A stretch of DNA of 64,000 bases from Streptomyces sp. A0642. Its GTDB lineage: Bacteria; Actinomycetota; Actinomycetes; Streptomycetales; Streptomycetaceae. The notes under the pieces are model-generated. The model did not search any database, was not told the DNA's origin, and saw nothing but the letters and a program-made list of their open reading frames with translations. This document shows, piece by piece, positions 10,434 through 64,000 of the stretch (its first letter is position 1; each line of letters begins with the position of its first letter). The stretch lies in contig NZ_SSBL01000003.1 in the NCBI RefSeq assembly GCF_004795105.1, positions 124,001-188,000 on the forward strand, read 5' to 3'. The position numbers were made by a program, and so were the translations under genes.

Positions 10434-10453
10434 ACGCCATCCTACCGCTCTCG

Positions 10454-10468
10454 ATAGAGGGATCCTAT
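10454..10468. promoter_or_regulatory. Candidate LysR operator in lysR-sdh intergenic region
   Basis: ATAG-N7-CTAT inverted repeat containing the T-N11-A core typical of LysR sites. It lies 20 bp upstream of the lysR start and 60 bp upstream of sdhC. Probably used for autoregulation and sdh control. Confidence 0.5.
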
Positions 10469-10527
10469 GGACATCAGGCGTTCCATGTCTTGGACCGATC
10501 GGGCCCTCGGGCCCTAGCGTCGTGTCC

Positions 10528-11235: not shown

Positions 11236-11236
11236 C

Positions 11237-13182
<1,946 letters not shown>

Positions 13183-13186
<4 letters not shown>

Positions 13187-40269: not shown

Positions 40270-41259
40270 TCACGTCTCCGTCGTGGCTCCGCGACGGAGG
40301 AACAGCGGCGCCAGGGCCTCGGCGGCCGCCGCCACGTTCCGCGGGGGAACGCCGTTCATCCCGGGCACGGCCGGGAGCAGCGTGCTGGACAGGCACGTGT
40401 TCTGCGGACGGGAGGCGTAACGGCCGGCGGCCCTGGGGACCGGCTGCACCCGGTCCGCCGGTACGCCCAGTGCGCGGGCGATCTCACGGGCCCAGGCAGC
40501 ACGGGAGACGCGCTCAGGGCCGCCCAGGTGCAGCACGGGCGGAAGGCCACCCCCGTGTGCGAGGAGGCGGGCGACCACCATGGCGACATCGTCCACGAGG
40601 ACCGGGGTGGTCCACTGGTCGGCCGGTGCCTCCACCGTCTCGCCCCGGGCCAGGCCGTGAGCGCACGACGCGAAGAAGTTCAGCCACTTCCCGCCGTCAG
40701 CGGGCTCGTGGCCGTAGACGAGACTGACGCGCAGGGCCGTCGCCGGGGAGACCGCCCGGGACAGCAGCACCTCCTCGGCGGCGCGCTTCGCCGTCCCATA
40801 GGCGTTGGCGGGTGCGACCGGGGTGGACTCGAGGTTCTCGGCCGACCTGCCGTCGAACACGTTGTCCGTCGAGATCATCACGATGCGGTCCAGGTCCGGT
40901 AGCGCGGCGAAGTTGGCCGTCGCCGCCCGGTGCGCCGCGACCGCCTCCTCGGGGTGCGACTCGCACCAGGTGACGTCGGACGGCCCGTGGACCAGGACGA
41001 TCGTGCGGGGCGACACCGCCGCCACGACCCGGGCACAGGACCCCGCGTCGGTGGCGTCCAGTGTCCGCCACCGCGCCCCGTAGGCCTCGGGTGCGACCGG
41101 GGGCCGTCCTCGTGAACCGAGTGTCACCTCGTGGCCCTCGAGGACGAGCCGGCGGGCGATCTCGGAGCCGACGAACCCGCTGCCGACCACGAGCGCACGG
41201 CGAGCCGTGCCGGCCGGGGCGAGCGTGGCGGACGTGGAGTCCTCCGTACGCGCGGGCAT
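40270..41259 (-). CDS. RmlD-like NAD(P)-dependent sugar/cyclitol reductase
   Basis: 329 residues. Extended SDR of the dTDP-4-dehydrorhamnose-reductase type: cofactor loop VVGSGFVGSEIARRL, MISTDNVFDGRSAENLES (RmlD-like STDxVFDG), catalytic Tyr/Lys in AYGTAKRAAEE. Last gene of the operon, its start overlapping the stop of the kinase by one base. The acarbose pathway needs ketone reductions of the cyclitol (AcbL/AcbN in Actinoplanes), and no homologue of those is seen here. So this may reduce the valiolone-derived ketone. It could instead act on dTDP-4-keto-6-deoxyglucose and give a different sugar. Role inferred only. Confidence 0.8.
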   Translation of the reverse strand: MPARTEDSTSATLAPAGTARRALVVGSGFVGSEIARRLVLEGHEVTLGSRGRPPVAPEAYGARWRTLDATDAGSCARVVAAVSPRTIVLVHGPSDVTWCESHPEEAVAAHRAATANFAALPDLDRIVMISTDNVFDGRSAENLESTPVAPANAYGTAKRAAEEVLLSRAVSPATALRVSLVYGHEPADGGKWLNFFASCAHGLARGETVEAPADQWTTPVLVDDVAMVVARLLAHGGGLPPVLHLGGPERVSRAAWAREIARALGVPADRVQPVPRAAGRYASRPQNTCLSSTLLPAVPGMNGVPPRNVAAAAEALAPLFLRRGATTET

Positions 41260-42332
41260 CAGAGGGTCACCTTCTCCCGGTGGACCGCGAGACGCCGGCC
41301 CATGAGCCGGCCCACGCCGATCAGGCCGTGGTCGTCGTCGTCCTCGCCCAGCACGACCATCGCGTCGACCTCGGCCGCCGTCAGCCCGAAGCACCCCTGC
41401 CGTATGAGCTCTTCCACCAGCAACTCCCGGTAGCGCTCGCCGATCGCGAGGGCGAAGCCCCCCATCAGGACGTACCGGCGGATCCCGATCGAGGCGAACA
41501 CCCCGCCCACCGCTGCCGCCAGGTGAACGAGGGTGGAGCGCAGCACGGACGTCGTGAACGGGTCCCCGTTCCGTACGGCCCGCGCGATCTCCGGATTGCC
41601 GACGAACCGCGGGTCGGCGGCCCCGGCGCGTGCCGGGGCCGACCGGGCGTAGCCCGCGGGGTCGCGCGCCGCCGCCCGGCGCACCGCGGCGAGGACGCCC
41701 CGGCCCGAGGCGATCGCCCCCAGGTGCCCACGCCCCCCGCAGTCGCACAGCGGGGCGTCGGGGGAGCGGTCACAGGTCCAGTGGCCCAGCTCCCCGCCGT
41801 ACCCCCCGGGGTCGAGGAGCACGTCTCCGCCGCGGAACACCTTGTTACCTATGCCGGAGCTGATGGTCAGCAGACAGAACGGGACCGAGCTCTCCGTCCC
41901 GTACCGCCAGGCGGCCGCAGTGAGGTCGTTGACGACGAGCACGGGCACGGACAGCCGGGCGCTCAGGATCTCCCGGAGCGGAAGGGATTCGCCGCCCGCC
42001 CCCCATACCGTCGGGGCACCCAGGACGGTCCCGTCCCGGCCGACCGGGCCGGCGAAGGCGACGGCCAGAGCGGTCGGATCAGTGCCGGAACGCGTCCCGG
42101 CCCGCCGCTCGGCCTCCCGCACGATCTGGTCGACCACGTGCCGCTGGAGCACCGGCACGGGAGCACCCGGGTGGCGTGCCATGCCGTCCACCTGCGTCCG
42201 GCGCACGTCGGAGAGGCGCCCGCTGCCCCGGGCGTCGAAGGTGCCGACGCGCAGCGTCGTCCCCCCGACGTCCATCACGGTCACGGGTTCGCCGGTCTCC
42301 GTCCCCGTCGGGTCACCGGGCGGGATCGACAT
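41259..42332 (-). CDS. acbM: ROK-family C7-cyclitol 7-kinase (AcbM/ValC-like)
   Basis: 357 residues, ATG 42332 with GAGGAA upstream. ATP loop MDVGGTTLRVG (about 20-30), catalytic VVNDLTAAAW (Asp), GYGGELGHW and a zinc motif CDCGGRGHLG, where the third Cys of the usual CxCGxxGC is His. In acarbose synthesis AcbM phosphorylates 2-epi-5-epi-valiolone at C7; ValC does a related step in validamycin. Placement beside the cyclase supports this. It overlaps the cupin gene by 20 bp and is coupled to the RmlD-like gene. A glucokinase role is the alternative. Confidence 0.82.
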   Translation of the reverse strand: MSIPPGDPTGTETGEPVTVMDVGGTTLRVGTFDARGSGRLSDVRRTQVDGMARHPGAPVPVLQRHVVDQIVREAERRAGTRSGTDPTALAVAFAGPVGRDGTVLGAPTVWGAGGESLPLREILSARLSVPVLVVNDLTAAAWRYGTESSVPFCLLTISSGIGNKVFRGGDVLLDPGGYGGELGHWTCDRSPDAPLCDCGGRGHLGAIASGRGVLAAVRRAAARDPAGYARSAPARAGAADPRFVGNPEIARAVRNGDPFTTSVLRSTLVHLAAAVGGVFASIGIRRYVLMGGFALAIGERYRELLVEELIRQGCFGLTAAEVDAMVVLGEDDDDHGLIGVGRLMGRRLAVHREKVTL

Positions 42333-42717
42333 CGGCTTCCTCTCTCTCGTGCGCCTCCACCTCGAAGACGAGCAGCGCCAGTTCGGTGTCGGTGTCGTTG
42401 CGCAGACCGTGCTCGCCGAAGGGCTCGTTGGGGATGACGTCCCCGGCCTCCACCCGGAAGGTGTTGCCGTCCCGGTACATCACGCCGCTCCCGCTGAGTA
42501 CGACGTACGTCTCGCGGTCGTCACCGTGCCGGTGCCGTCCTATGGACGTTCCCGGCGGCAGGACGGCCAGATCGATGAAGTCGGCGCCGGCCCCGCCGCC
42601 CCGGGCGAAGACCCGGTGGGCGAGGATCGTCCCCGCCCCGCCGTGGTCGTGCGGTTTCGGGGACAGCAGGCGCCGCAGATTCGCGAGGGGCCGTGTGATC
42701 TCGGTTCCGCGGGTCAC
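42313..42717 (-). CDS. Single-domain cupin, possible cyclitol epimerase or isomerase
   Basis: 134 residues from a GTG overlapping the cyclase stop (GTGA). Both cupin motifs are complete: RHRHGDDRETYVVLSG (His, His, Glu) and GDVIPNEPFGEHGLRN (His), so a metal site is present. No AcbO-type 2-epimerase gene is found in the window, and this gene sits between the cyclase and its kinase. It may do the C2 epimerisation or a dehydration, or be regulatory. No direct evidence of reaction. Confidence 0.75.
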   Translation of the reverse strand: MTRGTEITRPLANLRRLLSPKPHDHGGAGTILAHRVFARGGGAGADFIDLAVLPPGTSIGRHRHGDDRETYVVLSGSGVMYRDGNTFRVEAGDVIPNEPFGEHGLRNDTDTELALLVFEVEAHEREEADVDPAR

Positions 42718-43916
42718 AGCCTGGCCTCCCGGGCGATTCCCCCGGCTCTCAGGGTGAGTTCCTCCAGGGCGAGGCCGAGCACGTCGCGGGGGATGTCGTT
42801 GAGGTCGTCGACGAACGTCGCCTTGCCCGCGGCGATGGGGACCACCAGGTGCAGCCGGCGGCCGCGGCGTTCCCAGGACTCCTCGAGCGCCCGGGTCATC
42901 AGCTCCGGTGTGCACGTCTCCGCGTCGAAGACGGGCAGCCCTATGCGACTCAGGAGACCGATGATCCGGTCGCACTCCCGCTCGTCGACCAGACCGAGCC
43001 GCAGCGCCAGGCAGGACGAGAGCGCCATGTCGACGGCGACGGCCTCGCCGTGCTCGAGACGGTGGTCGCCGGCCGTCTCGATCACGGGGCTGAAGGTATG
43101 GCCGAAGTCCACCAGGCGGGCGAGCTGGTGCTCCCGCAAGTTCGGGCACAGCTCTTCCATCATCAGCCGCATCGAGGTGCGCAGGATGTACCTCTCGACC
43201 TCGGGCGGTGTCGGGGCTCCGGTCCGCCGGAACGCGTCTGGGTACCGCTCCAGCGTGCGGAACAGCTCCTCGTCCAGGATCACGGCCATCTTCACGATCT
43301 CGGCGAGACCACAGCGGATCTCGCGAAGCGGCAGGGTGGAGAGGAACGCGGGATCGCTCAGCGAGGCGTGCGCGGGGTGGTAGGCGCCGAACATGTTCTT
43401 CGTACGGAGGGCGTTGACACCCGTCTTGACGCCGACGCCCACGTCCACCTGGCCGACGAGGGTGGTGTTGATCCGGACGTAGCGGATCCCCCGGGAGTAC
43501 ATCGAGGCGGCGAAGCCCACGACATCCGAGACGATGCCCCCGCCGAGGGCCAGCATCACCCCGTGCCGGTCGAGTCCGTGCGCCTTGGCGAGCGCGCAGA
43601 CCCGCTCCGCCATGGCCAGCGTCTTGTTCTTCTCCCCGGTGGGAATCGTGTGCAGCGTCCATGTCCCCGGGGCCAGGTTCGCCTCCAGGTAGTCGCGCAG
43701 CGCCTGCCCGTACAGGCGGTCGACGGTCGGCCCCGTGAAGGCGACGACCCGGCGTCCGCCCACCGCGCGGGCGAGTGCGGGATTCCCGGGCGACAGCACC
43801 CCCGGGACGAGGTCCGACCGGTACCCGGTGCCGTCCGGCGCGAGCAGGCTGAATCCGCTGGCGTCCTCCCACACCCCCGACAGACGTTCCTCGTCAACTA
43901 GAACCCGGCTTGACAT
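42714..43916 (-). CDS. acbC: 2-epi-5-epi-valiolone synthase (sedoheptulose 7-phosphate cyclase)
   Basis: 400 residues, ATG 43916 with AGGAG upstream. Dehydroquinate-synthase fold: VMLALGGGIVSDVVGFAASMYSRG (NAD site about 120-143), INTTLVGQVDVGVGVKTGVN (about 149-168), metal ligands Glu206 (GLAEIVK), His273 (DFGHTFSP) and His289 (HGEAVAVDM). True dehydroquinate synthases have NFGHTFGH; the SP variant and the VGVGVKTGVN loop are typical of the valiolone synthases. It cyclises sedoheptulose 7-phosphate, giving the C7 ring of the pseudo-sugar. This is the marker gene of the cluster. 2-epi-valiolone synthase is a possible alternative. Confidence 0.92.
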   Translation of the reverse strand: MSSRVLVDEERLSGVWEDASGFSLLAPDGTGYRSDLVPGVLSPGNPALARAVGGRRVVAFTGPTVDRLYGQALRDYLEANLAPGTWTLHTIPTGEKNKTLAMAERVCALAKAHGLDRHGVMLALGGGIVSDVVGFAASMYSRGIRYVRINTTLVGQVDVGVGVKTGVNALRTKNMFGAYHPAHASLSDPAFLSTLPLREIRCGLAEIVKMAVILDEELFRTLERYPDAFRRTGAPTPPEVERYILRTSMRLMMEELCPNLREHQLARLVDFGHTFSPVIETAGDHRLEHGEAVAVDMALSSCLALRLGLVDERECDRIIGLLSRIGLPVFDAETCTPELMTRALEESWERRGRRLHLVVPIAAGKATFVDDLNDIPRDVLGLALEELTLRAGGIAREARL

Positions 43917-45972
43917 GCCTCTCCTCGTTAGTCACTCGGTGTGCTTGCGGCCGGCGTGCGTACACCCCGGCCAGGTGGCGGAGGAGCGGAGCCTCGGACA
44001 GCTCCTCCAGGGAGACCGGACGACCCTGGCCGTCGGCGATCGGCAGGCACCAGTTGGGGTGGAGCCCTGCCGTGCCGGGCAGGTTCTGCGGCCGCCGGTC
44101 GCCGGTCGTGTCCGGGAGCCAGACGCCGATCATCCGGGCCGGCGTCAGACTCAGGTACGTGTGCAGTGCCGCGACCTCGCCCGCGGGGTCGGGCAGGAGC
44201 CCGAGCCGGACCAACTCGTTGATCCAGCCGTCCCGTTCGCCGGCGGCTTCGGCTTTCTCCTCCTCCGGCGGCCGGGTGAGCAGCCCCAGAGAGGCCCGCA
44301 GGTCGACGTGTTCGCCGCTGAGCCAGGCCGCTGTGCTGGGCAGGTCGTGCGTGGTCAGGGTGGCGAGACAGTGCTCGCGCCACTGGTCCGGCGGCAGAGG
44401 GCCCACCCGGCCCTCGGAACCGCCCTCGTATTCGAAGCGCTGCACGGCCGTCCCCAGTACGCCCCGGGCCGAGAGCTCCTCGCGCACCTCCGGTTCGACC
44501 GTGCCCAGGTCCTCGCCGATGACGAACGCCCCGGCGGCCTCCGCCTCGGCGCCCAGCACGGCCAGCATCGCCGTGCCGTCGTACCGGACGTAGGTGCCGT
44601 CGGCCGGGGGACGTCCCTCCGGCACCCACCAGAGGCGGAAGAGCCCCATGACGTGGTCGACGCGGAGGGCACCGGAGTGCCGCAGCCCCGCGCGCACCAG
44701 ACGCGCGAAGGGCCCGTAAGCCTCCGCGGCCAGAGCGTCCGGACGCCACGGCGGCTGTCCCCAGTCCTGCCCGGACGGATTGAAGTCGTCCGGCGGAGCC
44801 CCCACCGACATCCCCTCGGCCAGACAGTGCTGGAGCGCCCAGGCGTCGGCCCCCTCGGGGGCCACGCCCACCGCCAGGTCGTGGACGAGCCCGACGCGCA
44901 TCCCGGCCTCCCGCGCGGCACGCTGGGCGCCGGCAAGCTGCTCGTCGGTGATCCAGGCGAGCCACCGGTGGAAGTCGACGGCGCCGGACAGGACCCGGCG
45001 GGAGTCGGCCACGGCCGCGGACCGGGGGTCGCGCAGGGCGGCGGGCCAGGAACGCCAGGCCGGGCCGTGGACCTCCGCCAGCGCGCACCAGGTGGCGAAA
45101 TCCGTGAGGTCACGGCCCTCCCGCGCCACGTACGCGGCGAACGCCGCCTCGCGCCCGGGTGAGCGGGGCACCTCGTACACCTCGCGCAGGGCCAGGTGCT
45201 TCAACTCGCGTACCTCCTCGCGGCGGATGAGCGACTCCCCGGCGAGGACGGCGGAGTTGAGGAACGTGGCCCGGCCCGCCAGCCGCCGGACCCGGGCGCG
45301 TGGCCCCGCCGCCAGGTACGCGAACTCGGGGACGGCTTCGACCCGCACGTGCATCGGGTCGGGGAAACGGCGGCTGCTCGGCCGGTAGGGCGACGGGTCC
45401 GGCAGCGGGCCGGGCTCCATCGCATGCAGCGGGCCCAGTTGGACGAAGTCGGCCCCCAGGTCCCGTCCCGTCCAGGAGACCAGCTCGGCGAGGTCACCGA
45501 GGTCGCCCATGCCCCAGGAGCGGCGCGAGAGCAGGAAGTAGAGCTGGACGAGGAGCCCCCACGAGTACGGTGCCGAGACCGACCGCTCCGGCGCGACCAG
45601 CAGCACCGCGGCGTCCTGCCGCCCGCCCCGCTCCACGCGCAGTGTGTGGGACCCCACCGGCAGCGGCTCGTCGAGTCCTCGCGTACGGCCGTCGGCGCAG
45701 AGGACCTCGGCCCTCGTTCCGGCCGGCAGCTTCGGCCGGGGGCCGCGAGGTCCCGGCACGACCGCGCACGGCGGAACGAGCCGCCGGGCCCGTTCGGCGC
45801 GGTGCGCCGCGAGGGCGGCTTCCGCGGCGGCGGGGGTCGAGGCGTCGATGCCGCAGGCGGCGAGCACCGCGACCAGCGTGTCCCGGGGAACGTCGACCGT
45901 GCGCCCCCGGTCGGTGCGGTAACCCGTCGCCACGCCATGGGCCTCGGCGAGACGGGAGAGCGGGTCTCTCAC
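43894..45972 (-). CDS. acbQ: 4-alpha-glucanotransferase (amylomaltase, AcbQ-like)
   Basis: 692 residues from GTG 45972, overlapping the previous stop (GTGA). GH77 catalytic residues: nucleophile Asp in LRVDHVMGLFRLWWVPEG, acid Glu in FVIGEDLGTVE, stabiliser Asp in TLTTHDLPSTAAW; also SPYRPSSRRFPDPM. It shuffles maltosyl and glucosyl units between maltooligosaccharides in the cytoplasm. In acb clusters it is thought to supply or tune the acceptor oligosaccharide. It has the long N-terminal region (about 1-125) usual in actinobacterial MalQ. Housekeeping malQ would not sit inside this operon. Confidence 0.9.
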   Translation of the reverse strand: MRDPLSRLAEAHGVATGYRTDRGRTVDVPRDTLVAVLAACGIDASTPAAAEAALAAHRAERARRLVPPCAVVPGPRGPRPKLPAGTRAEVLCADGRTRGLDEPLPVGSHTLRVERGGRQDAAVLLVAPERSVSAPYSWGLLVQLYFLLSRRSWGMGDLGDLAELVSWTGRDLGADFVQLGPLHAMEPGPLPDPSPYRPSSRRFPDPMHVRVEAVPEFAYLAAGPRARVRRLAGRATFLNSAVLAGESLIRREEVRELKHLALREVYEVPRSPGREAAFAAYVAREGRDLTDFATWCALAEVHGPAWRSWPAALRDPRSAAVADSRRVLSGAVDFHRWLAWITDEQLAGAQRAAREAGMRVGLVHDLAVGVAPEGADAWALQHCLAEGMSVGAPPDDFNPSGQDWGQPPWRPDALAAEAYGPFARLVRAGLRHSGALRVDHVMGLFRLWWVPEGRPPADGTYVRYDGTAMLAVLGAEAEAAGAFVIGEDLGTVEPEVREELSARGVLGTAVQRFEYEGGSEGRVGPLPPDQWREHCLATLTTHDLPSTAAWLSGEHVDLRASLGLLTRPPEEEKAEAAGERDGWINELVRLGLLPDPAGEVAALHTYLSLTPARMIGVWLPDTTGDRRPQNLPGTAGLHPNWCLPIADGQGRPVSLEELSEAPLLRHLAGVYARRPQAHRVTNEERHVKPGSS

Positions 45973-48900
45973 GCGCCACCCCCCATCGGTGCCACCGGCG
46001 TGCCGAAGAGGCGCTCGAGGACCGCCGCCACGCCGTCCTCCTCGTTGCCCGGCGCGATCTCGTCGGCGACGGCCCGCAGCGCGGGGTGTGCGCCGGCGAC
46101 CGCCACCCCGTGGCGGGCGAGCGCGAGCATCGGTATGTCGTTGGGCATGTCACCGAATGCCACGGTCTCCTCGCCCGTGCGGCCGAGGATCTCCAGGGCC
46201 CGCGCCACACCGGTGCCCTTGGTGACGCCCCATGGCAGGACCTCGACCATCCCCTGGACGGAGTGGACGATGGTCACCTCCTCACCGCAGAGCCGGCGCG
46301 CCGTCTCGGCCAGCTCATCGTCCCCGAGGACACGGTGGTGCAGCACCAGCTTGTCGATCGGCCTCTCCCACAGCAGCGACCGGTCGGCCGTGACGTCCCA
46401 GCCGTGCCGTACCCGCTCACCGAAGCCCGGTGTGACCTTGAACCGGCTCTCCGGAGGCGAGGTCACCACCCCGAGTTCGAGCGGCCCGACGAGGTCCTCG
46501 ACGCGGGCGACGACCGAGCGTGCGAGCCCGGTGTCGAGCCGCTCCGCGGACAGCAGCCGGTCGGCGCCCGCGTCGTACAGCTGCGCGCCCTGCCCGCACA
46601 CGGCGAGCCCTGTGTATCCGAGGGAGTCCAGGAGCCGCCGGCAGGCGGCGGCCGGACGACCGGTCACCACGAGGTGCCGGGCCCCGGACGCGGCCACCAG
46701 ACCGAGTGCGCGCCGGGTCCGCGACGAGACCGTCAGATCGCCGCGGAGCAGTGTTCCGTCGAGGTCCGTGGCCACGACGCGGTAGGGCGGGGCGTCCGGG
46801 AGCGGGACGTTGTCCCAGGTCACGCGGCCATCGGCGAGCGTGAGCCGGAGCACGAGACCAGCCCTCAGGGCGTCGGCACGGACGGAGCCCCGGAAAACGC
46901 CGTCGGCGTCCCGGCGCAGCGCGGTGGTCCAGGTCCTGCCCACCAGGGGCACCGGCTCGTCCGACAGCGCGGCCTCGGCCGCGGATTCGAGGGGTTCCTC
47001 ACGGGACGGGTCCGTGCCGGCCGCGACCGTCGCCCCGTCCCCCTCGACCACGAGGTCGGCCGCCGCCACCGCGGGATGCCGGTACTCCACCCGCAGCGTC
47101 CCGTCCCGCTCGTCGGGCGAGACGCGGCAGCGGTGCCGGACCGGGGACATCAGTGCCTCGCGGCCCGCCGCCTCCGCAAGCTCGGCGCAGCGCGGGAAGT
47201 CCGCCCGTCCGAACGCGGCGGCGAACAGCGCCTCGTACGCGGCGCCGTCGAGCTCGGCGCACCGCCCGTAGGCGGTGGCGTCGCCCAGTTCGAGCGCGCG
47301 CCGGAGGATCGCCTGCCGGTGCTCGGCCCACTCGGCTCCTTCGAGGAGGTCGAACCATCCGTACCGGATCGCGTCCCGCGCCGGCAGGCGGCGCGGGACA
47401 TCGTCGAGGAGCTCCCGGAACACGGCGAGGCGGCGGCGTGCGCTCTCGCCCCAGGTGAATCCGCGGGCCGTCCCGGAGGCCGCGGCGGACAGGCGCGCGT
47501 ATGCCTCGGGCTCCTCGCGGAACATCCGCTCCGCGTCACGGATCCGGTCCGCGATGAGCGCCGCGAGCTCCCGGTCGTCGTCGCGGAACGAGCCGCGGAC
47601 CGCGAGGCCCGTCGCCGTCGGATCCTCGTGGGGACGGGCGTGGCCGAAGTGGGCTGTGGTCCGCTGCGCGGTGGCGATGGGTACGGCGCCGCAGGCCATC
47701 GCCTCGGCCTGCGCGATGAGGAATCCGTCGAGCTCGAACTTCGACGGGTACACGCAGAAGTCGGCGCAGGCGGCCTCCGCGAAGAGCGCCTCCTCGTCGA
47801 CGAGCCGCCAGTCGAGCCGGACCCGGTCCGGGTAGGCGTCGGCCACCCGCTGGAAGTACGCGTTGGCGGGCGCCGCCTCCGCCACTCCGCCCGCGCCGGT
47901 CGCGCACCGCAGGAGGAAGCTGACCTCCGCCCCGTCGGCCAGGACCTTCTCCACCGCCCGGATCAACTCCAGCTGGCCTTTGTGGTGCACCGCGTACCGG
48001 GCCGCGTGGTAGAAGACGGGCCGGGTGGGATCGAGCCCCAGGGAACGCAGCACGGCGTCGCGGTCGACGGCCCCCGGGTCCCTGGCCAGCCAGGATCCGG
48101 AGATCCCGCAGCCCCCGTCGAACAGCTTGCCCGCCTGCTGACGCAGCAGGCGGGAGACGGGCAGCGACGCGACGTACCGCTCCATCGGAGTGTCGGCGAG
48201 GGTGCTGTAGTGGTCGCGCTGCCCGGGAGAGACGAAGTCCAGCAGGTCGGCATGGGCGAGAAGCTGCGGGAAGAGGCCGACGTGGTCGGGGCCGTACTCT
48301 GTGTGCAGGCGTGTCGCCGACAGCGCCCGCACCATCGCGGCGGCGGGTGAGCCCTCCGGCGGTGGCACCTCCTCCCAGGCGTCGAGAGAGGGCCCCTCAC
48401 CCGCCGCTGTCCCGTGGCCGCCTGCTCCGGGTGACGCGTCGAAGAGACGCAACAGGGCCTCGACCTGCGGCCGGTACACCTTCTGCGTGATCGGCGCGTT
48501 GGCCGCCACCGTGCTGACGCAGCGCCACCGGGGATCGCCCCGCAGCACCAGCGGGACCAGGTAGTGATAGGCCGGCTCGAAGCCGTGGACGATCGCCGGC
48601 TGATCCCCGCCGAGCCACTCCCGCAGGAAGTGCAGTCCGGCCACCTGGAAGACCAGAGGCTTGAAGAACGACAGGTCCCGGCCCTCGGAGTCCGGTGGCG
48701 GGTACAGGCGGTCCGGCAGCAGGTCCAGCTGGGCGTCGGACAGGAAGTACACGTCCACGCCCTCGAGCCGCAGCAGGTGGGCCCGCGTGGTCAGCGGCAG
48801 CACCGCCTCGGGGAGCCGGCCCGGCCAGGTCTTCGGATCGAGCACCAGCGGCACCGCGTGGTCGATCCTGAAGTCCAGTTCCTCGATCGGGTACGACTCG

Positions 48901-49061: not shown

Positions 49062-49071
49062 GGGTGCTCCC

Positions 49072-52306: not shown

Positions 52307-52307
52307 G

Positions 52308-53849: not shown

Positions 53850-53860
53850 CACGCAGTTCG

Positions 53861-56492: not shown

Positions 56493-57868
56493 GCGGCCAC
56501 CACTCGTTCGATGGCCTGCCCGAGGATCCGTACGCCTTCGTCGAGGAGCGTCTCGTCCATCGTGAAGGGGGGCGCGAGCCGGATGATGTGTCCGCCGACC
56601 GAGGTCCGGAGCCCGAGGTCGAGTGCGGTGGTGTACACGGCGCGGGCGGTCTCGGGGGCGGGAGCCCGGGTGGCGCGGTCACGGACGAACTCCAGGCCGT
56701 GCAGCAGGCCGACGCCCCGGACCTCCCCGAGCACCTCGAAGCGGGCGCGCAGCGAGGCGAGCTGCTCGCCCAGCCGGTCGCCGAGCACCCGGACCCGTTC
56801 GATGAGCCGGTCGCGCTCCACGACCTCCAGCGTCGCCCGCGCGGCGGCTATGCCCAGCGGGTTTCCCGCGTACGTGGACGCGTAGGCGCCGGCCGGAGCG
56901 GCGGCGGGGGAGTGCAGCAGGTCGTGCCGTCCCGCGAGGACGGCGAAGGGGAAGCCGTTCGCCATCCCCTTCGACATCGTCACGAGGTCCGGTTCCACGC
57001 CCACGAGTTCGGATGCCAGGAAGGCCCCCGTGCGGCCGCCACCCGTCGCCACCTCGTCGGCGACCAGGAGGACGCCGTTGTCACGGCAGGCCTCCGAGAC
57101 GCGCTCCCAGTAGCCGGGAGGCGGCACGATGACGCCCGCGGCGCCGAGCACCGGCTCGAAGACCAGGGCGGAGACGTTCGGCTTGGAGGAGATGTGCCGG
57201 TTGACGAGGGTGGCGCACCGGACGTCGCAGGAGGGGTACTCCAGTTCCAACGGGCAGCGGTAGCAGTACGGGGCGTAGCCGAGGACGCTGTTTCCCGCGA
57301 AGGACTGATGGCCGACGTCCCAGTGCACCAGCATGCGTGCGCCCATGGTCTTGCCGTGGAAGCCGTGCCGCAGGGCGCCGATGCGGTTGCGGCCCGGCTC
57401 CGCCGTGGACTGGACCACCCGGAGCGCGGCCTCCACCACTTCCGCGCCGGTGGAGAACAGGGCGTACGTGTCGAGGTGTTCGGGCAGAAGGCGTGCCAAC
57501 AGCTCGAAGAACAGGGCCCGTTCCGGCGTGGAGCTGTCGTGTACGTTCCACAGCCGCTCGGCCTGGCGGGTCAGTGCCGCGACGACCTCCGGATGACTGT
57601 GCCCCAGCGACTGGGTGAGCGTGCCGGCGGCGAAGTCCAGGTACTGGTCGCCGTCGAGATCGGTGAGGACTGCCCCCCGTCCCTCGGTGAAGACGCGCCT
57701 GGCGAGCACGGCCTCCTCGGACGCGCCAGGAGCCAGATGCCGTGCCTCTCTGACCAGCAGTTCTCGCTGGTTACCTGCCACCGGTGCCCCCATGGGTCGG
57801 ACGAACTGAATGGCTCTGGAAGCCAGTTGATCGTTCTGCTGTGCGAGTGAAGCATCCTCGGGTGACAT
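56489..57868 (-). CDS. acbV: Class III PLP aminotransferase (AcbV-like)
   Basis: 459 residues, first gene of the leftward operon. Fold-type I, class III: FSTGAEVVEAALRV, LRHGFHGKTMGARM, VADEVATGGGRTGAF, PLP lysine in TMSKGMANGFPFAV (about residue 294). AcbV aminates dTDP-4-keto-6-deoxyglucose to dTDP-4-amino-4,6-dideoxyglucose. A class III enzyme rather than the usual DegT type is a known feature of the acb pathway. No clear Shine-Dalgarno before ATG 57868 (TTGCTAG), so a leaderless or short-leader message is possible. Confidence 0.85.
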   Translation of the reverse strand: MSPEDASLAQQNDQLASRAIQFVRPMGAPVAGNQRELLVREARHLAPGASEEAVLARRVFTEGRGAVLTDLDGDQYLDFAAGTLTQSLGHSHPEVVAALTRQAERLWNVHDSSTPERALFFELLARLLPEHLDTYALFSTGAEVVEAALRVVQSTAEPGRNRIGALRHGFHGKTMGARMLVHWDVGHQSFAGNSVLGYAPYCYRCPLELEYPSCDVRCATLVNRHISSKPNVSALVFEPVLGAAGVIVPPPGYWERVSEACRDNGVLLVADEVATGGGRTGAFLASELVGVEPDLVTMSKGMANGFPFAVLAGRHDLLHSPAAAPAGAYASTYAGNPLGIAAARATLEVVERDRLIERVRVLGDRLGEQLASLRARFEVLGEVRGVGLLHGLEFVRDRATRAPAPETARAVYTTALDLGLRTSVGGHIIRLAPPFTMDETLLDEGVRILGQAIERVVAA

Positions 57869-57901
57869 CTAGCAAGATATTTCAGAAACTTTCAGACGCG
57901 C

Positions 57902-57956
57902 CTTGCAGTCCATGGCTCAGCTCTGCTTGAGTCGCCATGCGACCGCCGACTAGAGC
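57902..57956 (+). promoter_or_regulatory. Divergent cluster promoter region with CTTGCAG element
   Basis: The 152-bp gap between the two operons. A possible rightward promoter is TTGAGT (57927-57932), 18-bp spacer, TAGAGC (57951-57956). CTTGCAG at 57902-57908 is the heptamer known from Streptomyces alpha-amylase operators bound by the maltose regulator (MalR/Reg1), and its inverse GCAAG occurs at 57872-57876 next to the acbV start. Suggests starch/maltose control of both operons. Confidence 0.45.
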
Positions 57957-58020
57957 CTCGAGAGCGAGGAGAGACCGTGCCCAGACACCACCAGGCCGCA
58001 ACCCACCGAAGGCAGCCGAT

Positions 58021-59088
58021 GTGAAAGCCCTGGTCCTGGCCGGTGGAACCGGCAGTCGACTGCGCCCCTTCACCCACTCCGGGACCAAACAGCTCCTGCC
58101 GATCGCCAACAAGCCGGTGCTCTTCTACGGCTTGGAGTCCATCGCGGCGGCCGGCATCACTGAAGTGGGCCTCGTCGTGGGCGACTACGCCGACGACATC
58201 CGACGGGCCGTCGGCGCCGGGGGCTGCGCCTTCGGACTCGACATCACCTACATTTCACAGAGCCGCCCGCTGGGCCTCGCCCACGCGGTGTCCCTCGCCC
58301 GCGATTTCCTCGGCGACGACGACTTCCTCGTCTACCTGGGCGACAACTACCTCGAGGACGGCGTACGGGACTTCGTCGCCCACGCGACGCTGCACCCCGC
58401 CGCGGCCCGGCTGCTCGTGACCTCCGTTCCCGACCCCAGCGCCTTCGGCGTGGCGGAGGTCGAGACGACCGGCCGCGTGACGCGGGTGGAGGAGAAGCCC
58501 GCCTGCCCGCGCAGCGACCTCGCACTCATCGGCGTCTACGCGTTCAGCCCCGCGCTGCACGAGGCGGTGCGGGCGATCCGCCCGTCGGCCAGGGGCGAAC
58601 TCGAAATCACCCACGCGATCCAGTGGTTGATCGCCGACGGCCAGGACGTCCGCGCCGAAACGACCTCCTCCGTGTGGCGCGACACCGGCAGCGTGGACGA
58701 CATGCTGGAGGTGAACCGCCACGTCCTGGACGGCCTGAGGGGGCGTCTCGACGGAAAGGTCGACCCCGACAGCGTCGTCGTGGGCCGCGTCGTACTCGGT
58801 GAGGGGGCCGTGGTCAGGGGATCGCGGATCATCGGCCCCGTCGTCATCGGCCCCGGCAGCGTCATCAGCAACGCCTTCATCGGCCCCTACACGTCGATCG
58901 GCGCTGCCTGCCGCGTCCACGACAGCTCGATCGAGACCTCGGTCCTCCTCGACCGGGCCGCCGTCGAATGCGCCGGTCGCATCGAACGCTCCTTCATCGG
59001 CCGTGACGCCGTCGTGTCGGCCCCCCGTTTCCCCTACGCCCATCGCCTCGTACTCGGCGACCACAGCAAGGTGCAACTCCACCCATGA
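58021..59088 (+). CDS. acbA: Glucose-1-phosphate thymidylyltransferase (AcbA-like)
   Basis: 355 residues from GTG 58021 (GAAGG 8 nt upstream). Nucleotide loop LAGGTGSRLRPFTHSGTKQLLPIANKPV, FLVYLGDNYLEDGV, VEEKPACPRSDLALIGVYAF, WRDTGSVDDMLEVN, then a beta-helix C-terminus, i.e. the long RmlA form usual in antibiotic clusters. Makes dTDP-glucose from glucose 1-phosphate and dTTP. Coupled to acbB by a 4-bp overlap. Confidence 0.9.
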   Translation: MKALVLAGGTGSRLRPFTHSGTKQLLPIANKPVLFYGLESIAAAGITEVGLVVGDYADDIRRAVGAGGCAFGLDITYISQSRPLGLAHAVSLARDFLGDDDFLVYLGDNYLEDGVRDFVAHATLHPAAARLLVTSVPDPSAFGVAEVETTGRVTRVEEKPACPRSDLALIGVYAFSPALHEAVRAIRPSARGELEITHAIQWLIADGQDVRAETTSSVWRDTGSVDDMLEVNRHVLDGLRGRLDGKVDPDSVVVGRVVLGEGAVVRGSRIIGPVVIGPGSVISNAFIGPYTSIGAACRVHDSSIETSVLLDRAAVECAGRIERSFIGRDAVVSAPRFPYAHRLVLGDHSKVQLHP

Positions 59089-60077
59089 CCCGACGCATAC
59101 TCGTCACCGGCGGCGCCGGATTCATCGGCTCCGCCCACGTCCTGCGCCTCCTCGGCCCCACGGGGCCGCCGCACGTCTCCGTGACCGTCCTCGACAACCT
59201 GACCTACGCGGCGGGCCCCGCCCGTCCGCACCCGCTGCGCGACGACCGGCGCCTCCGGTTCGTGCGCGGCAGCGTCACCGACGCGGAACTCGTCGACTCC
59301 CTCGTGCCCGGACACGACGAGATCGTGCACTTCGCGGCCGAGTCCCACGTCGACCGGTCGATCGAGAACGGTTCGCTCTTCGTCAGCACCAACGTCCTGG
59401 GGACGCAGACCCTCCTGGACGCGGCCGTCCGCCACGGCGTCCGGACCTACGTCCAGATCTCCACCGACGAGGTGTACGGCTCGATCGCGGCGGGCGCGGC
59501 CTCGGAGGACGCCCCGCTCCGGCCCAGTTCGCCCTACTCGGCCTCCAAGGCCGCCGCCGACCTGATGGCACTCGCCTACCACGCGACCCACGGGCTGGAC
59601 GTCCGCGTCACCCGCTGCTCCAACAACTTCGGGCCGCGTCAGCACCCCGAGAAGCTGATCCCGCGGTTCGTGACCGCTCTTCTGGCGGGCGAGGACGTGC
59701 CCCTGTACGGTGACGGATCCCAGATCCGGGACTGGCTCTACGTGGAGGACCACGTCACCGCCGTCGAACTGGTCAGGACCGGCGGACGCCCCGGCCGGAT
59801 CTACAACATCGGGGGCGGGACCTCCCTGACCAACCTGCAGCTGACCCGCCGCCTCCTCGCGCTCTGCGGCGCCGGGCCCGGCCGGATCGCCAGGGTGGCT
59901 GACCGCAAGGGCCACGACCAGCGGTACGCGGTGGACGACAGCCGCATCCGGCGGGAACTGGGGTACGAGCCCCGCGCGGACTTCGCCACGGCCCTTGCCG
60001 ACACGGTCCGCTGGTACGCGGACCGGCACCCGCCGAGGTCCGACGACCGCCCTGCCGCCGGGGCGCTCTTCTCCTGA
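59085..60077 (+). CDS. acbB: dTDP-glucose 4,6-dehydratase (AcbB-like)
   Basis: 330 residues, usual RmlB length. NAD loop TGGAGFIGSAHVLRLL, ESHVDRSIENGSLFVSTNVLGT, active-site STDEVYGS (Thr-Asp-Glu) and YSASKAAADLM (Tyr/Lys), NNFGPRQHPEKLIP. Converts dTDP-glucose to dTDP-4-keto-6-deoxyglucose, the substrate of AcbV. ATGA start overlaps acbA stop. Amylase gene follows after 115 bp. Confidence 0.93.
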   Translation: MTRRILVTGGAGFIGSAHVLRLLGPTGPPHVSVTVLDNLTYAAGPARPHPLRDDRRLRFVRGSVTDAELVDSLVPGHDEIVHFAAESHVDRSIENGSLFVSTNVLGTQTLLDAAVRHGVRTYVQISTDEVYGSIAAGAASEDAPLRPSSPYSASKAAADLMALAYHATHGLDVRVTRCSNNFGPRQHPEKLIPRFVTALLAGEDVPLYGDGSQIRDWLYVEDHVTAVELVRTGGRPGRIYNIGGGTSLTNLQLTRRLLALCGAGPGRIARVADRKGHDQRYAVDDSRIRRELGYEPRADFATALADTVRWYADRHPPRSDDRPAAGALFS

Positions 60078-60192
60078 GCCCGGCGCGGCAACCCGGCGCA
60101 CCGTCTCCGCGATACCGCATCCCGGGCCGCGGCCGGCCCCGGCCGCTCCCTTCCATACCCGCCCACCCACGCTCCCGAGGAGCAGTACACCC

Positions 60193-63100
60193 GTGACCGG
60201 ACCCCTCCGGCGCTCCGCCATGACCCTGGCGACCGCCGTTCTGGCGACGGCCCTCACCGGCACACCGTCGACCGCGACCACTACGCCGGCTCCGTCGCCG
60301 GCCGCACCGCCCCCGTCGGACCGGGCGCTCGCCGCGCAGCCCGCGCGGCACGACCTCACCCGCGAGCAGTTCTACCTGGCGCTGCCCGACCGGTTCGCCA
60401 ACGGCGACACCTCCAACGACAGGGGCGGACTCACCGGCACCCGCATGGAGACCGGCTTCGACCCCACCGACAAGAAGTTCTTCCAGGGCGGAGACCTCAA
60501 GGGGCTCACCGAGCGGCTCGACTACATCAAGGGCCTCGGCACCACCGCCCTCTGGATGGCCCCCGTCTTCACCAACATCCCTGTCCAGAACAGGGGAGAT
60601 GCGAAGGACGCGTCGGCCGGCTACCACGGCTACTGGATCACCGACTTCACCCGGGTCGACCCGCACTTCGGGACCAACGAGGACCTGAAGAGGCTGATCG
60701 CCGCCGCCCACGCCAAGGGCATGAAGGTCTTCTTCGACGTCATCACCAACCACACCGCCGACACCGTCGACTACGCGGAGAAGGAGTACGGGTACCGCCC
60801 CAAGGGCGCGTTCCCCTACCTCGACGACACCGGCCGCCCCTTCGACGACACCGCCGAGGCTCCCCGGGTCGACGCCGACTCCTTCCCGTACACCCCCGCC
60901 GCCACGACCCGGACCAAGGTGCCGGCCTGGCTCAACGACCCCACCATGTACCACAACCGGGGCGACTCGACCTTCGTCGGCGAGAGCGGCCTCTACGGCG
61001 ACTTCTTCGGCCACGACGACCTGTGGACCGAGCGTCCCGAGGTCGTCGAGGGCATGAAGAGGATCTACGAGAAGTGGGTCGAGGACTTCGCCATCGACGG
61101 CTTCCGCGTCGACACGGCCAAGAACGTCAACATGGAGTTCTGGACCCAGTGGGCCACCGCCCTCGACGCGTACGCCGAGAAGCGGGGACGTGAGGACTTC
61201 TTCATGTTCGCCGAGGCATTCTCGGCCGACGCGACGATCACCGCCCCGTACGTCACCCAGGGCCGGCTCGACTCGACGCTGGACTTCCCGCTCCAGTCCG
61301 CCCTGCGCAACTACGTCTCGCGCGGCGGACCCGCCGGAGACCTTGCGCACGTCCTCGCCCAGGACCACCGCTACACCACCGACAAGGCCAACGCCTACGA
61401 GCAGGTCACCTTCCTCGGCAGCCACGACATGGGCCGGATCGGAACCTTCCTCGCCCAGGACAACCCCGGCGCCACCGACGCCGAACTGCTCCGCCGTGAC
61501 CGGCTCGCCCATGAACTGCTTCTCCTGAGCCGGGGCAACCCGGTCGTCTACGCCGGTGACGAGCAGGGCTTCACCGGTGCCGGCGGCGACGCCGACGCCC
61601 GCCAGTCCCTCTTCGCCTCGCAGGTCCCCGACTACCTCGACGACGACCTCATCGGCACCGACCGCACCCACGCGACCGACGCGTTCGACCCGGGCCACCC
61701 CCTCTACCGGATGATCGCCCGGCTCTCCGGCCTCACCAAACGCCACCCCGCGCTGCGCGACGGCGTCCAGATCGAGCGCCACGTCGCCGAGGGCCAGGGC
61801 GTGTACGCCTTCTCCCGCGTCGACCCCCGCAACCGCATCGAGTACCTCGTCGCCGTCAACAACGCCGAGGAACCCCGGACCGCCGAAGTCCCCACGGGGG
61901 CGGCCCACCAGGACCTCCTTCCCCTGTACGGAACCCGCCGGCCTCTGCGCAGCGGACCCGCCGGCGCCGTGACCGTCACCGTGCCCGCCCTGTCGGCCGT
62001 CGTCCTCAAGGCACGCACCCCGCTGCCCCACCGCGCCGGCGCACCCTCCCTCACCCTCTCCGTCCCCCCGGCCGGAGCGCGCGGCACCGTGGAGATCGGC
62101 GCGACCCTCTCCGGAGACCCCCTCACCCGGGTGGTCTTCGCCGCCCAGGCCGGCAACCGCCCCTGGCAGGTTCTCGGCTCCGCCGACCACGCTCCGTACA
62201 AGGTCACCCAGAACCTGCCCGCCGACACCCCGGCGGGCACCCCGCTGCGCTACAAGGCCGTCGCCGTGGACGGTTCGGGCCGCACCGCCGCCGCCCTCGG
62301 CACCACCACGACCGGCGAGAACCCGCCTCCGGCCAAGCCGAAGGCGGAACGCCGGTACGTCGTCGTGCACTACCGGCGCCAGGACGGCGATCACGACGGC
62401 CTGCGGCTGCGCACCGGTTCCGTCACCGCCGAGTTCGCCGGCCGCGACTCGTACGGCGCCTTCGCCTGGGTGGCCCCGCCCGAGGGAGCGACGAGCCTTT
62501 CCTTCACCGTGGAGAAGGACGGCGTCCCCGACGGCCCGGAACGCGTCCTCGATGTCACGGCCGCCGGCGAGGTCTGGACCCGCCAGGGCTCCACCCTGCT
62601 CGACGCCACCCGCCCCGCTGCCGCCCAGCTCCCCCAGGACCCGGCCAAGGCCTTGATCCACTATCACCGGCCCGACGGCGACTACGACGGGTGGGGACTG
62701 CACGCCTGGACCGGCGCCGCCCACCCGCCCGAATGGAACGACCCGATCCGGCCTGTACGCCGCGACGCCTTCGGTCTCGTGTTCGAGGTGCCCCTCAGCG
62801 AGAGAGCCCGCTCCCTGAGCTACATCCTCCACAAGAAGGAGGAGAAGGACGTCCCCACCGACGAGGCACTCGACTTCCGCCTCCACGGCCGCGAGGTCTG
62901 GCGCCTGGCCGGAGACCCCGTCCCCCTGTCGCCCTCCCTCGGCGGGGCCTTTCCGCTCGACCTGAGCCGCAGGGACGCCGTCTGGCTCGACGACACCACC
63001 GTCGTCTGGCGGGGCGCCGGAACCGGGGTCGCCAGTCAGCAACTCGTCTACGCCCCCGGAGGGATCGTGCTCACCGCCGGGGCCCTCTCCGACGAGGGCC

Positions 63101-63303
63101 GGTGGCTGCGTCTCACCCCCGCCACCCTCTCCGCCGACCAGCGAGCACGCCATCCCGGATACGAGGACTGGTCGGCCTTCTCCCTTGATCCCCGCGATCT
63201 CGACCGAGCCGCCGAGGCGCGACGAGGACAGCTGATCGCCACCCAGCGGGCCGCCGACGGCGCTCTCCTGGGCGCGACCGGCGTCCAGCTTCCCACCCAC
63301 TGA
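60193..63303 (+). CDS. acbE: Secreted GH13 alpha-amylase with CBM41-like modules (AcbE-like)
   Basis: 1036 residues from GTG 60193 (GAGGAG about 10 nt upstream). Short signal peptide (SAMTLATAVLATALTG), then GH13 barrel: GYHGYWITDFTRVDPHFGT, FFDVITNHTAD, nucleophile Asp about 306 in DGFRVDTAKN, acid Glu about 340 in FMFAEAFS, Asp about 411 in LGSHDMGR. After the barrel come two pullulanase-type starch-binding modules (HYRRQDGDHDG about 722; HYHRPDGDYDGWGLHAW about 823) and a pullulanase-N-terminus-like tail to 1036. Acarbose producers carry inhibitor-tolerant amylases beside the cluster. It should degrade starch outside the cell. The next gene is a close paralogue. Confidence 0.88.
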   Translation: MTGPLRRSAMTLATAVLATALTGTPSTATTTPAPSPAAPPPSDRALAAQPARHDLTREQFYLALPDRFANGDTSNDRGGLTGTRMETGFDPTDKKFFQGGDLKGLTERLDYIKGLGTTALWMAPVFTNIPVQNRGDAKDASAGYHGYWITDFTRVDPHFGTNEDLKRLIAAAHAKGMKVFFDVITNHTADTVDYAEKEYGYRPKGAFPYLDDTGRPFDDTAEAPRVDADSFPYTPAATTRTKVPAWLNDPTMYHNRGDSTFVGESGLYGDFFGHDDLWTERPEVVEGMKRIYEKWVEDFAIDGFRVDTAKNVNMEFWTQWATALDAYAEKRGREDFFMFAEAFSADATITAPYVTQGRLDSTLDFPLQSALRNYVSRGGPAGDLAHVLAQDHRYTTDKANAYEQVTFLGSHDMGRIGTFLAQDNPGATDAELLRRDRLAHELLLLSRGNPVVYAGDEQGFTGAGGDADARQSLFASQVPDYLDDDLIGTDRTHATDAFDPGHPLYRMIARLSGLTKRHPALRDGVQIERHVAEGQGVYAFSRVDPRNRIEYLVAVNNAEEPRTAEVPTGAAHQDLLPLYGTRRPLRSGPAGAVTVTVPALSAVVLKARTPLPHRAGAPSLTLSVPPAGARGTVEIGATLSGDPLTRVVFAAQAGNRPWQVLGSADHAPYKVTQNLPADTPAGTPLRYKAVAVDGSGRTAAALGTTTTGENPPPAKPKAERRYVVVHYRRQDGDHDGLRLRTGSVTAEFAGRDSYGAFAWVAPPEGATSLSFTVEKDGVPDGPERVLDVTAAGEVWTRQGSTLLDATRPAAAQLPQDPAKALIHYHRPDGDYDGWGLHAWTGAAHPPEWNDPIRPVRRDAFGLVFEVPLSERARSLSYILHKKEEKDVPTDEALDFRLHGREVWRLAGDPVPLSPSLGGAFPLDLSRRDAVWLDDTTVVWRGAGTGVASQQLVYAPGGIVLTAGALSDEGRWLRLTPATLSADQRARHPGYEDWSAFSLDPRDLDRAAEARRGQLIATQRAADGALLGATGVQLPTH
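60613..60762 (+). repeat. 150-bp segment identical in both amylase genes, copy 1
   Basis: This stretch is base-for-base identical to 63759-63908, while the flanking parts of the two genes differ at many positions. Encodes the barrel region around DFTRVDPHFGT. Confidence 0.93.
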
Positions 63304-63329
63304 ACCGCCCATCTGGAAGGGACCCAGAC

Positions 63330-64000
63330 GTGCACGAGCCAGCCACCCCCAAAAGGGCCGCACACCGCGGAGCACGCCTCGCCATCGCCACCGCGGTCAC
63401 GATGGTGGCCACAGCCGTCGCCGCCCACACTCCGGCGGCCGCCGACCACCGGCCCCCGCCGCCACCGTCGGACCGGGCGCTCGCGGCGGAGCCGGCCCGG
63501 CACGACCTCACCCGCGAGCAGTTCTACTTCGTCCTGCCCGACCGGTTCGCCAACGGCGACACCTCCAACGATCGGGGAGGTCTCACCGGTAGCCGTACGC
63601 AGACCGGCTTCGACCCCACCGACAAAGGCTTCTACCAGGGGGGTGACCTCAAGGGCCTGACCCAGCGGCTCGACTACATCAAGGGCCTCGGCACCACCGC
63701 CATCTGGATGGCACCGATCTTCAAGAACAAACCCGTCCAGGGCATCGGCAAGGACGCCTCGGCCGGCTACCACGGCTACTGGATCACCGACTTCACCCGG
63801 GTCGACCCGCACTTCGGGACCAACGAGGACCTGAAGAGGCTGATCGCCGCCGCCCACGCCAAGGGCATGAAGGTCTTCTTCGACGTCATCACCAACCACA
63901 CCGCCGACGTCATCCGCTCCGGCGAGAACCGGTACGCCTACCGGAGCAAGGGCGCCTACCCCTACCTGGACAGCACTGGTCGTCCCTTCGACGACACGAC
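63330..64000 (+). CDS. Second secreted GH13 alpha-amylase, 5' part
   Basis: Starts at GTG 63330 (GGAAGGG 9 nt upstream), 26 bp after the first amylase, and runs off the window; 223 codons are visible. Signal peptide (RLAIATAVTMVATAVAAHTPAAA), then SDRALAAEPARHDLTREQFYFVLPDRFANGDTSNDRGG and the GH13 region to ITNHTAD, closely like the upstream gene. Two tandem amylases also occur in the S. glaucescens acarbose cluster (from memory). Full domain set and catalytic residues lie beyond the edge. Confidence 0.9.
   Translation, partial: MHEPATPKRAAHRGARLAIATAVTMVATAVAAHTPAAADHRPPPPPSDRALAAEPARHDLTREQFYFVLPDRFANGDTSNDRGGLTGSRTQTGFDPTDKGFYQGGDLKGLTQRLDYIKGLGTTAIWMAPIFKNKPVQGIGKDASAGYHGYWITDFTRVDPHFGTNEDLKRLIAAAHAKGMKVFFDVITNHTADVIRSGENRYAYRSKGAYPYLDSTGRPFDDT
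63759..63908 (+). repeat. 150-bp segment identical in both amylase genes, copy 2
   Basis: Identical to 60613-60762 (offset 3146 bp), in the same frame of the second amylase. Suggests recent gene conversion or a repair template effect between the neighbours. Confidence 0.93.

Follow-up and report, generated by a model that had tools for sequence, protein, structure and literature searches.

A gac-type acarviosyl cluster in Streptomyces sp. A0642 with a predicted cupin epimerase and an AcbK-type kinase operon beyond the cluster

The closest described systems, of the kind that produces the diabetes drug acarbose, are the acb cluster of Actinoplanes and the gac cluster of Streptomyces. In Actinoplanes, experimental functions are reported for AcbM, AcbO, AcbU, AcbJ, AcbR, AcbI and AcbS (PMC9200736), and experiments showed that AcbL produces valienone 7-phosphate, which AcbN then reduces (PMC7081202). 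AcbK is described as protective within the cell (PMC10146171). The related validamycin synthesis employs ValA, a sedoheptulose-7-phosphate cyclase of known structure (PDB 4p53) within a family for which 14 fingerprint sites exist (PMC4426668), and ValD, a VOC-superfamily epimerase (title cited in PMC3424136 and PMC12041759). The gac genes follow the order A V W X Y U S R K I Q C J M O, and acarbose-, acarviostatin- or trestatin-type clusters were recorded in 12 of 295 Streptomyces, so that the class itself is not new (PMC13240717). Here we analyze a stretch of 64,000 nucleotides (the window; contig positions 124001–188000) from the 8.19-Mb genome of Streptomyces sp. A0642, which is confirmed by sequence comparison to carry a gac-type cluster and probably encodes the synthesis, export and tolerance of an acarviosyl inhibitor of starch-degrading enzymes. 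The predicted product is a related inhibitor reached by a route that would differ in part from that of Actinoplanes.

Thirteen minus-strand genes extend from 57868 down to 40270 with successive gaps of -23 (overlap) to +11 bp, and diverge from plus-strand rmlA, rmlB and two amylase genes (Table 1). This agrees with the preliminary description of one 13-gene leftward operon, with overlaps or gaps under 15 bp, divergent from acbA-acbB-amylase-amylase. Codon-position GC is consistent with the operon gene calls, and Pfam and NCBIfam profile searches, used for domain assignment, agree with the families named earlier: cyclase, ROK kinase, paired GT-B glycosyltransferases (GTs), GlgC-like nucleotidyltransferase, class III aminotransferase, RmlA/RmlB, GH77 and the WXY exporter. 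Three details go beyond that description, namely the cupin, the RmlD-like short-chain dehydrogenase/reductase (SDR) and a C-terminal HAD domain on the second GT. The resulting fusion protein has 1030 amino acids, with the HAD domain at about residues 763–1015; when it was used as the query of a class-wide search, the matches listed, besides the window's two GTs, hit the HAD part.

The markers of the class are all present: the sedoheptulose-7-phosphate cyclase, the AcbR-type nucleotidyltransferase, paired AcbS-like (GT1) and AcbI-like (GT2) transferases separated in a tree with split support of 99/97, the dTDP-4-amino-4,6-dideoxyglucose genes A, B and V, the AcbJ-like HAD, the AcbU-like kinase, WXY and Q. 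Markers of the gac subtype (GT2-HAD fusion, cupin and RmlD-like SDR) are also present, gacK between R and I is absent, and the gene order agrees with the gac order except for K. Relatives of GT1 at E ≤ 1e-40 occur in 22 of 392 genomes of the genus (the own genome and other cluster types included). Their neighborhoods, together with those of 59 AcbR loci (named loci retrieved by AcbR alignment, with flanks to 10 kb and one S. alfalfae assembly counted three times), reveal colinear gac-type clusters; given these colinear relatives, the operon gene set is far above chance. The assignment to an acarbose-like class made in the preliminary description is borne out, since the best matches of the AcbS-like protein sit in colinear gac-type clusters, the cyclase and V are most alike in clusters of that type, and the cupin is a relative of GacJ.

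Among Streptomyces, S. coelicoflavus NBRC 15399 (compared here in place of ZG0656) has an acarviostatin-type cluster in which 13 of 13 operon positions are colinear with the window at 51–76% identity, but it possesses a gacK-type kinase and its best GMC oxidoreductase match reaches just 39%. Fragments of S. glaucescens NRRL B-2706 (L109, rather than GLA.O) are colinear for GT1, R, gacK, the GT-HAD fusion and Q, and contain a cupin named GacJ with 67–69% identity to that of the window; unlike the window, they harbor gacK between R and I, and no GMC relative above 41% was found there. The Actinoplanes reference was A. sandaracinus NEAU-A12 (L147 and L158), not SE50/110, with gene order V U S R P I J Q K M L N O C; we assigned these letters by position. 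Identities to the window are 74% for V, 63% for R, 59% for S, 57% for Q, 54% for J, 49% for I and 37% for U, and the AcbS-like GT is closer to AcbS (59%) than to AcbI (44%). For the early genes they fall to 39% (cyclase) and 30% (ROK kinase at the AcbM position), and the window cluster proteins gave no BLASTP match at 1e-3 to AcbO, AcbL or AcbN, which Pfam assigns to a xylose-isomerase-like TIM barrel, ADH_N and short-chain dehydrogenase, respectively. Relatives of these three proteins were found neither in the window nor in 30 colinear gac-type loci, some of them incomplete. This pattern indicates that the assembly half is common to both systems and the early cyclitol half is not; by sequence, the genes for the early cyclitol steps show either no relationship or a remote one to those of Actinoplanes. 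A. sandaracinus also differs in having J unfused to I, a NUDIX gene P, and WXY on the strand opposite V. The earlier statement that the gene set departs from that of Actinoplanes therefore holds, but most of the departures (GT-HAD fusion, cupin, SDR, cyclase and ROK kinase) are common to Streptomyces gac-type clusters.

The steps and the product outlined here are predicted from gene content, gene order, orthology, residues and kinase location, which were observed directly. The cyclase would convert sedoheptulose 7-phosphate to 2-epi-5-epi-valiolone, the ROK kinase would add the 7-phosphate, the cupin would epimerize C-2 via a metal-bound enolate, and the RmlD-like SDR would complete the remaining route to valienol 7-phosphate, which the APH-like kinase, the HAD domain and the GlgC-like enzyme would turn into GDP-valienol. 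RmlA, RmlB and V would provide dTDP-4-amino-4,6-dideoxyglucose, to be joined to maltose by the AcbI-like domain, and the AcbS-like protein would form the C-N bond. The GH77 enzyme would introduce variation in the glucose tail, and export of the product would fall to WXY. The producer would be protected by an AcbK-type kinase, whose gene lies beyond the window, and by amylases bearing a His-to-Asn change. This reading is supported by the colinear Streptomyces clusters and by the orthology of V, U, S, R, I, J, Q and the kinase to Actinoplanes acb. A more specific version, which we put forward only tentatively, is that the GDP-valienol cassette evolved independently, with an Arg-type cyclase, a metal cupin as a third, non-homologous epimerase after the VOC protein ValD and the TIM-barrel AcbO, and one SDR for AcbL and AcbN, and that this clade replaced its gac kinase with one of AcbK type, linked to a GMC oxidoreductase and an aldo/keto reductase (AKR) for product remodeling or recycling.

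The gap between R and GT2 in the window is 10 bp and contains no gacK. At this position a PfkB kinase (gacK, here K1) is present in 21 of the 30 colinear gac-type loci (L122, L129, L130, L145 with K1 in a mixed arrangement, and L147 were left out) and absent from nine: those of S. parvus, S. griseoluteus, sp. NK15101, S. litmocidini, S. filamentosus and S. termitum, with gaps of 13–16 bp, and those on three contigs of a single S. alfalfae assembly, with a gap of 117 bp. The latter contigs (strain XY25; L103, L104 and L105) carry the same cluster, probably through assembly redundancy. The window groups with the six K1-less species. Another PfkB kinase, K2, lies directly before a GMC oxidoreductase in all eight gacK-less gac-type genomes, the own genome included, where the K2-GMC-AKR operon is located ~2.7 to 6.1 kb beyond the window end. 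The best PDB match of K2 is 'Acarbose 7(IV)-phosphotransferase' (6wb7, E 2.8e-108), and its identity is 59% to the A. sandaracinus cluster kinase and 51% to a second kinase of that strain. In a tree, K1 (25 rows) and K2 (15 rows) form separate clades; AcbK of Actinoplanes is placed with K2 at full support, subject to a long-branch warning. We rejected the loss of the acarbose kinase from the clade, as a kinase was found in the stretch beyond the window, and its relocation out of the operon, as K1 and K2 are separate clades with 44–47% identity. An importer role for the K2 neighbors was also rejected, as Pfam assigns them to the GMC and aldo/keto reductase families. This clade is set apart by its lack of gacK and by the operon of AcbK-type kinase, GMC and AKR outside the window, and the likely self-protection kinase sits in a separate operon.

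A second Streptomyces cluster type, represented by S. griseofuscus DSM 40191 (L134), shares C, the cupin, V, W, X, Y, U, S, R, the ROK kinase, the SDR, HAD and the kinase-GMC-AKR run with the window genome. It differs in that the AcbI-like GT and rmlA/rmlB are absent from the stretch examined and the HAD stands alone; the K2-GMC-AKR run lies within the cluster, followed by a radical SAM gene, and additionally has a NUDIX gene. The same type is seen at L132, L135, L137, L138, L153 and relatives, with AcbS and no AcbI-like GT or rmlA/rmlB in the stretches examined, and most of these loci carry the GMC oxidoreductase, the AKR and the radical SAM gene. Perhaps the GMC enzyme of this type could supply a keto sugar to the aminotransferase. 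L129 and L130 combine an AcbI-like GT with a stand-alone HAD, and no rmlA/rmlB was detected in the stretch examined.

A GMC relative with at least 65% identity is present in 23 of 38 genomes searched, comprising 9/9 second-type loci (L129 and L130 included), 7/7 gacK-less gac-type and 7/19 K1-bearing ones; among the same 38, none was found in S. glaucescens, S. coelicoflavus, A. sandaracinus, A. utahensis or the P. kirkii symbiont. This distribution, together with the cyclase of the trestatin producer S. dimorphogenes (71% identical to that of the window), would suit a trestatin-like or other acarviosyl congener in place of acarbose or acarviostatin, the kinase-GMC-AKR operon adding an oxidation/reduction step. 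We regard such a product as somewhat unlikely. The genome G036, taken as S. albofaciens JCM 4342, has GMC and AKR genes adjoining its cluster, and another S. albofaciens strain matched acarviostatin I03 by mass spectrometry (PMC12498427), so that a new skeleton need not follow from the pair. The nearest solved structures of the GMC protein are broad (alcohol, hydroxymethylfurfural and choline oxidases) and those of the AKR are aryl-alcohol dehydrogenase and YdhF-like proteins. Our guess is that the pair oxidizes and re-reduces the product, or recycles it. The literature search returned no glucoside 3-dehydrogenase precedents, and no single paper in the literature searched, outside which subscription papers mostly lie, contained acarbose, GMC, oxidoreductase, gene cluster and Streptomyces together.

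Returning to the predicted acarviosyl route, the 59 AcbR loci could be sorted by their cyclitol genes. The window type (cyclase, cupin, SDR and ROK kinase) was found at 39 loci, and two more lacked just the SDR in the stretch examined; six had a VOC protein, SDR and ROK kinase together with a cyclase of the Actinoplanes type, a further VOC locus showing no cyclase; AcbL and AcbN without cupin, VOC protein or SDR were found at five (four with AcbO); and an SDR with neither cupin nor VOC protein was found at three (L127 and L131, with no cyclase in the stretch examined, and L150). The SDR is thus present at 49 of the 59, accompanied by the cupin in 39, by the VOC protein in seven and by neither in three, and at none of the 59 did more than one of cupin, VOC protein and AcbO/AcbL occur together. 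The VOC protein has a double glyoxalase fold and belongs to the same superfamily as ValD. One natural protein (P0229) fuses cyclase and cupin in a single chain of 547 amino acids. The cupin metal ligands H62, H64, E69 and H103 (HxHx4E...H) are invariant in 26 aligned homologues, among the 39 locus cupins, 37 fit both motif patterns and two miss the second, and the structure model is confident (predicted local distance difference test score, 88.5). On these grounds of cassette exclusion, VOC/ValD kinship, fusion, invariant ligands and a confident model, we predict that the cupin (GacJ) is an epimerase. In the literature searched, '2-epi-5-epi-valiolone' and 'cupin' never appear in the same paper. 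A cyclase-cupin-SDR-ROK-AcbR set with 30–52% identity also occurs in the beta-proteobacterial loci L144, L146, L148 and L151 (Noviherbaspirillum, Caballeronia and Candidatus Paraburkholderia kirkii), the last being a leaf symbiont that produces streptol (PMC8599487).

The window cyclase has the same Leu256 and Asp270 as ValA, but Arg350 in place of the His aligned to His366 of the 4p53 chain, which we take to be ValA His360, a published fingerprint site. Arg occupies this position in 37/37 readable actinobacterial cupin-cassette cyclases, whereas the eight cyclases readable at VOC or AcbO/L/N loci have His, as does the A. sandaracinus reference; the L150 cyclase has Ile. In an alternative reading, the Arg-type cyclase would make a different stereoisomer, so that no separate epimerase would be needed and the cupin could be a dehydratase that converts its substrate to valienone 7-phosphate by beta-elimination, in line with a weak similarity to dimethylsulfoniopropionate (DMSP) lyase, an eliminating cupin (7e-06, below the Pfam cut-off). 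We judge this unlikely, since the cyclases of the beta-proteobacterial cupin loci L144 and L151 retain His, so that cupin and Arg are not always paired, and since the ROK kinase and SDR are common to VOC and cupin clusters, which suggests that the role replaced is that of the VOC epimerase.

Several observations count against the epimerase cassette and the wider pathway. The Arg substitution means that the cyclase product could differ from that of ValA, the single SDR must do what AcbL and AcbN do in Actinoplanes, and the AcbU-like kinase is just 37% identical to AcbU. On the SDR tree, just two changes of the cupin/VOC label are needed, so that the exclusion represents a few evolutionary events rather than 59; that tree has 42 rows, with identical and short proteins, including the beta-proteobacterial SDRs, left out. 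Flanks were read to 10 kb, and at three of the 59 loci, all fragments, none of the cassette genes is seen. Foldseek neighbors of the cupin model are small cupins of mixed function (TM1287, TM1459, phosphomannose isomerase and DMSP lyase) and not specifically epimerases, and the fold search was therefore rejected as a pointer to the reaction.

Both window amylases carry Asn at the His position of the DGFR-D--KH motif, which we take to be the published acarbose-resistance site. All 15 AMY1-like amylases have Asn and were found in 9 of 11 clusters (the other two had none in the stretch examined), the other cluster amylase family keeps His in 7/7 (two members checked, with CBM20), as does a similar amylase of the host encoded on a different contig (C30). 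For pullulanase-type amylases from clusters of this kind, a change from His to Asn has been tied to acarbose resistance, and the same change is reported in 11 genomes that lack such clusters (PMC13240717).

The divergent promoter gap contains CTTGCAG, quoted as a MalR box (PMC5526262). This is its single exact occurrence in 64 kb, compared with a chance mean of 3.9, so the evidence lies in placement and not in number, and MalR-box enrichment in the window was rejected; the motif lies within the same gap in 9 of 11 clusters. The element AACTTTCAG occurs twice in 83 kb, in this gap and ~212 bp before K2, a lead for possible co-regulation. That this is an ordinary gac-type cluster that simply lost gacK, with an unrelated outside kinase operon, is improbable: the ~11 kb between the kinase operon and the head of the 13-gene operon, the intervening genes that vary among relatives, and K2 relatives (69–71%) on contigs apart from the cluster in 2/7 K1-bearing genomes searched would fit such a loss, but the acarbose 7-kinase match, the grouping with AcbK, the invariable position before the GMC gene and the shared element do not. 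The real start of rmlA may be the GTG at 58021.

Among other genes of the window are a PAS-GGDEF-EAL protein gene followed by genes for a succinate dehydrogenase/fumarate reductase-like flavoprotein and an iron-sulfur protein (7399–13929, +), and a UvrA-like ABC protein gene with the UvrA DNA-binding domain and ABC_tran (15998–18457, -). The gene at 22590–24014 (-) encodes DinB_2 and FGE-sulfatase domains, the make-up of the ergothioneine synthase EgtB. An Old-yellow-enzyme family oxidoreductase gene (Oxidored_FMN; 39029–40144, +) adjoins the operon end and lies outside the gac gene order.

Table 1. Features of the cluster and of the outside kinase operon (window positions, except where L035 is given)
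Feature	Position	Strand	Evidence or remark
RmlD-like SDR, last gene of the operon; predicted cyclitol dehydratase/reductase	40270..41259	-	Pfam RmlD_sub_bind 4.6e-33; no other match elsewhere in the genome at E ≤ 1e-8
ROK-family kinase, predicted cyclitol 7-kinase (AcbM role)	41259..42332	-	Pfam ROK 3.7e-23
Cupin (GacJ homologue)	42313..42717	-	Cupin_2 3.1e-15
Sedoheptulose-7-phosphate cyclase, GacC-like, dehydroquinate-synthase family	42714..43916	-	best PDB match 4p53, E 4.9e-74
GH77 amylomaltase (GacQ/AcbQ)	43894..45972	-	Glyco_hydro_77 3.3e-102; 57% to Actinoplanes Q
AcbI-like GT-B (N-terminal) and HAD-IIB phosphatase (C-terminal, AcbJ-like) fusion	45969..49061	-	profiles, tree
GlgC-like nucleotidyltransferase (AcbR), predicted GDP-valienol synthase	49072..50190	-	63% to Actinoplanes AcbR
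AcbS-like GT-B (GT1), predicted pseudoglycosyltransferase	50183..52306	-	profiles, identity, tree
APH-like kinase (AcbU position), predicted valienol-7-phosphate 1-kinase	52308..53849	-	APH 8.1e-05, just under Pfam cut-off; HGD motif; no PDB sequence match at E 0.1
ABC exporter permease Y	53861..54661	-	PF06182 2.8e-49
ABC exporter permease X	54658..55473	-	PF06182 4.2e-17
ABC exporter ATPase W	55470..56492	-	ABC_tran 1.5e-24
Class III sugar aminotransferase V	56489..57868	-	Aminotran_3 4.4e-85; 74% to Actinoplanes AcbV
Divergent promoter gap	57869..58020	.	MalR-type CTTGCAG box (57902), AACTTTCAG (57887)
RmlA-type glucose-1-phosphate thymidylyltransferase A	57937..59088	+	TIGR01208 2.7e-118, above cut-off
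dTDP-glucose 4,6-dehydratase B	59085..60077	+	TIGR01181 1.8e-115, above cut-off
Pullulanase-domain amylase, Asn in DGFRVDTAKN motif	60220..63303	+	profile, motif reading
Second pullulanase-domain amylase, 68% to first; Asn (DGFRVDTVKN)	63330..64000, continuing beyond window to ~66470	+	
K2 AcbK-type kinase, operon head	L035 6204-7142	-	~5 kb beyond window end
GMC oxidoreductase	L035 4711-6207	-	Pfam
Aldo/keto reductase (AKR)	L035 3734-4645	-	Pfam

The cluster itself is of a known kind, and its possibly new part may be the kinase swap with the GMC-AKR pair together with the predicted epimerase. The published 'complete' acarbose pathway is the Actinoplanes version, whose AcbO, AcbL and AcbN are without relatives in the gac-type loci examined; the cupin and the SDR would for this reason be two candidate genes for the Streptomyces route to valienol 7-phosphate. 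The exchange of kinases, with the oxidoreductases linked to it, would offer a way to probe the purpose of product phosphorylation, and may mark strains that yield altered alpha-glucosidase inhibitors.

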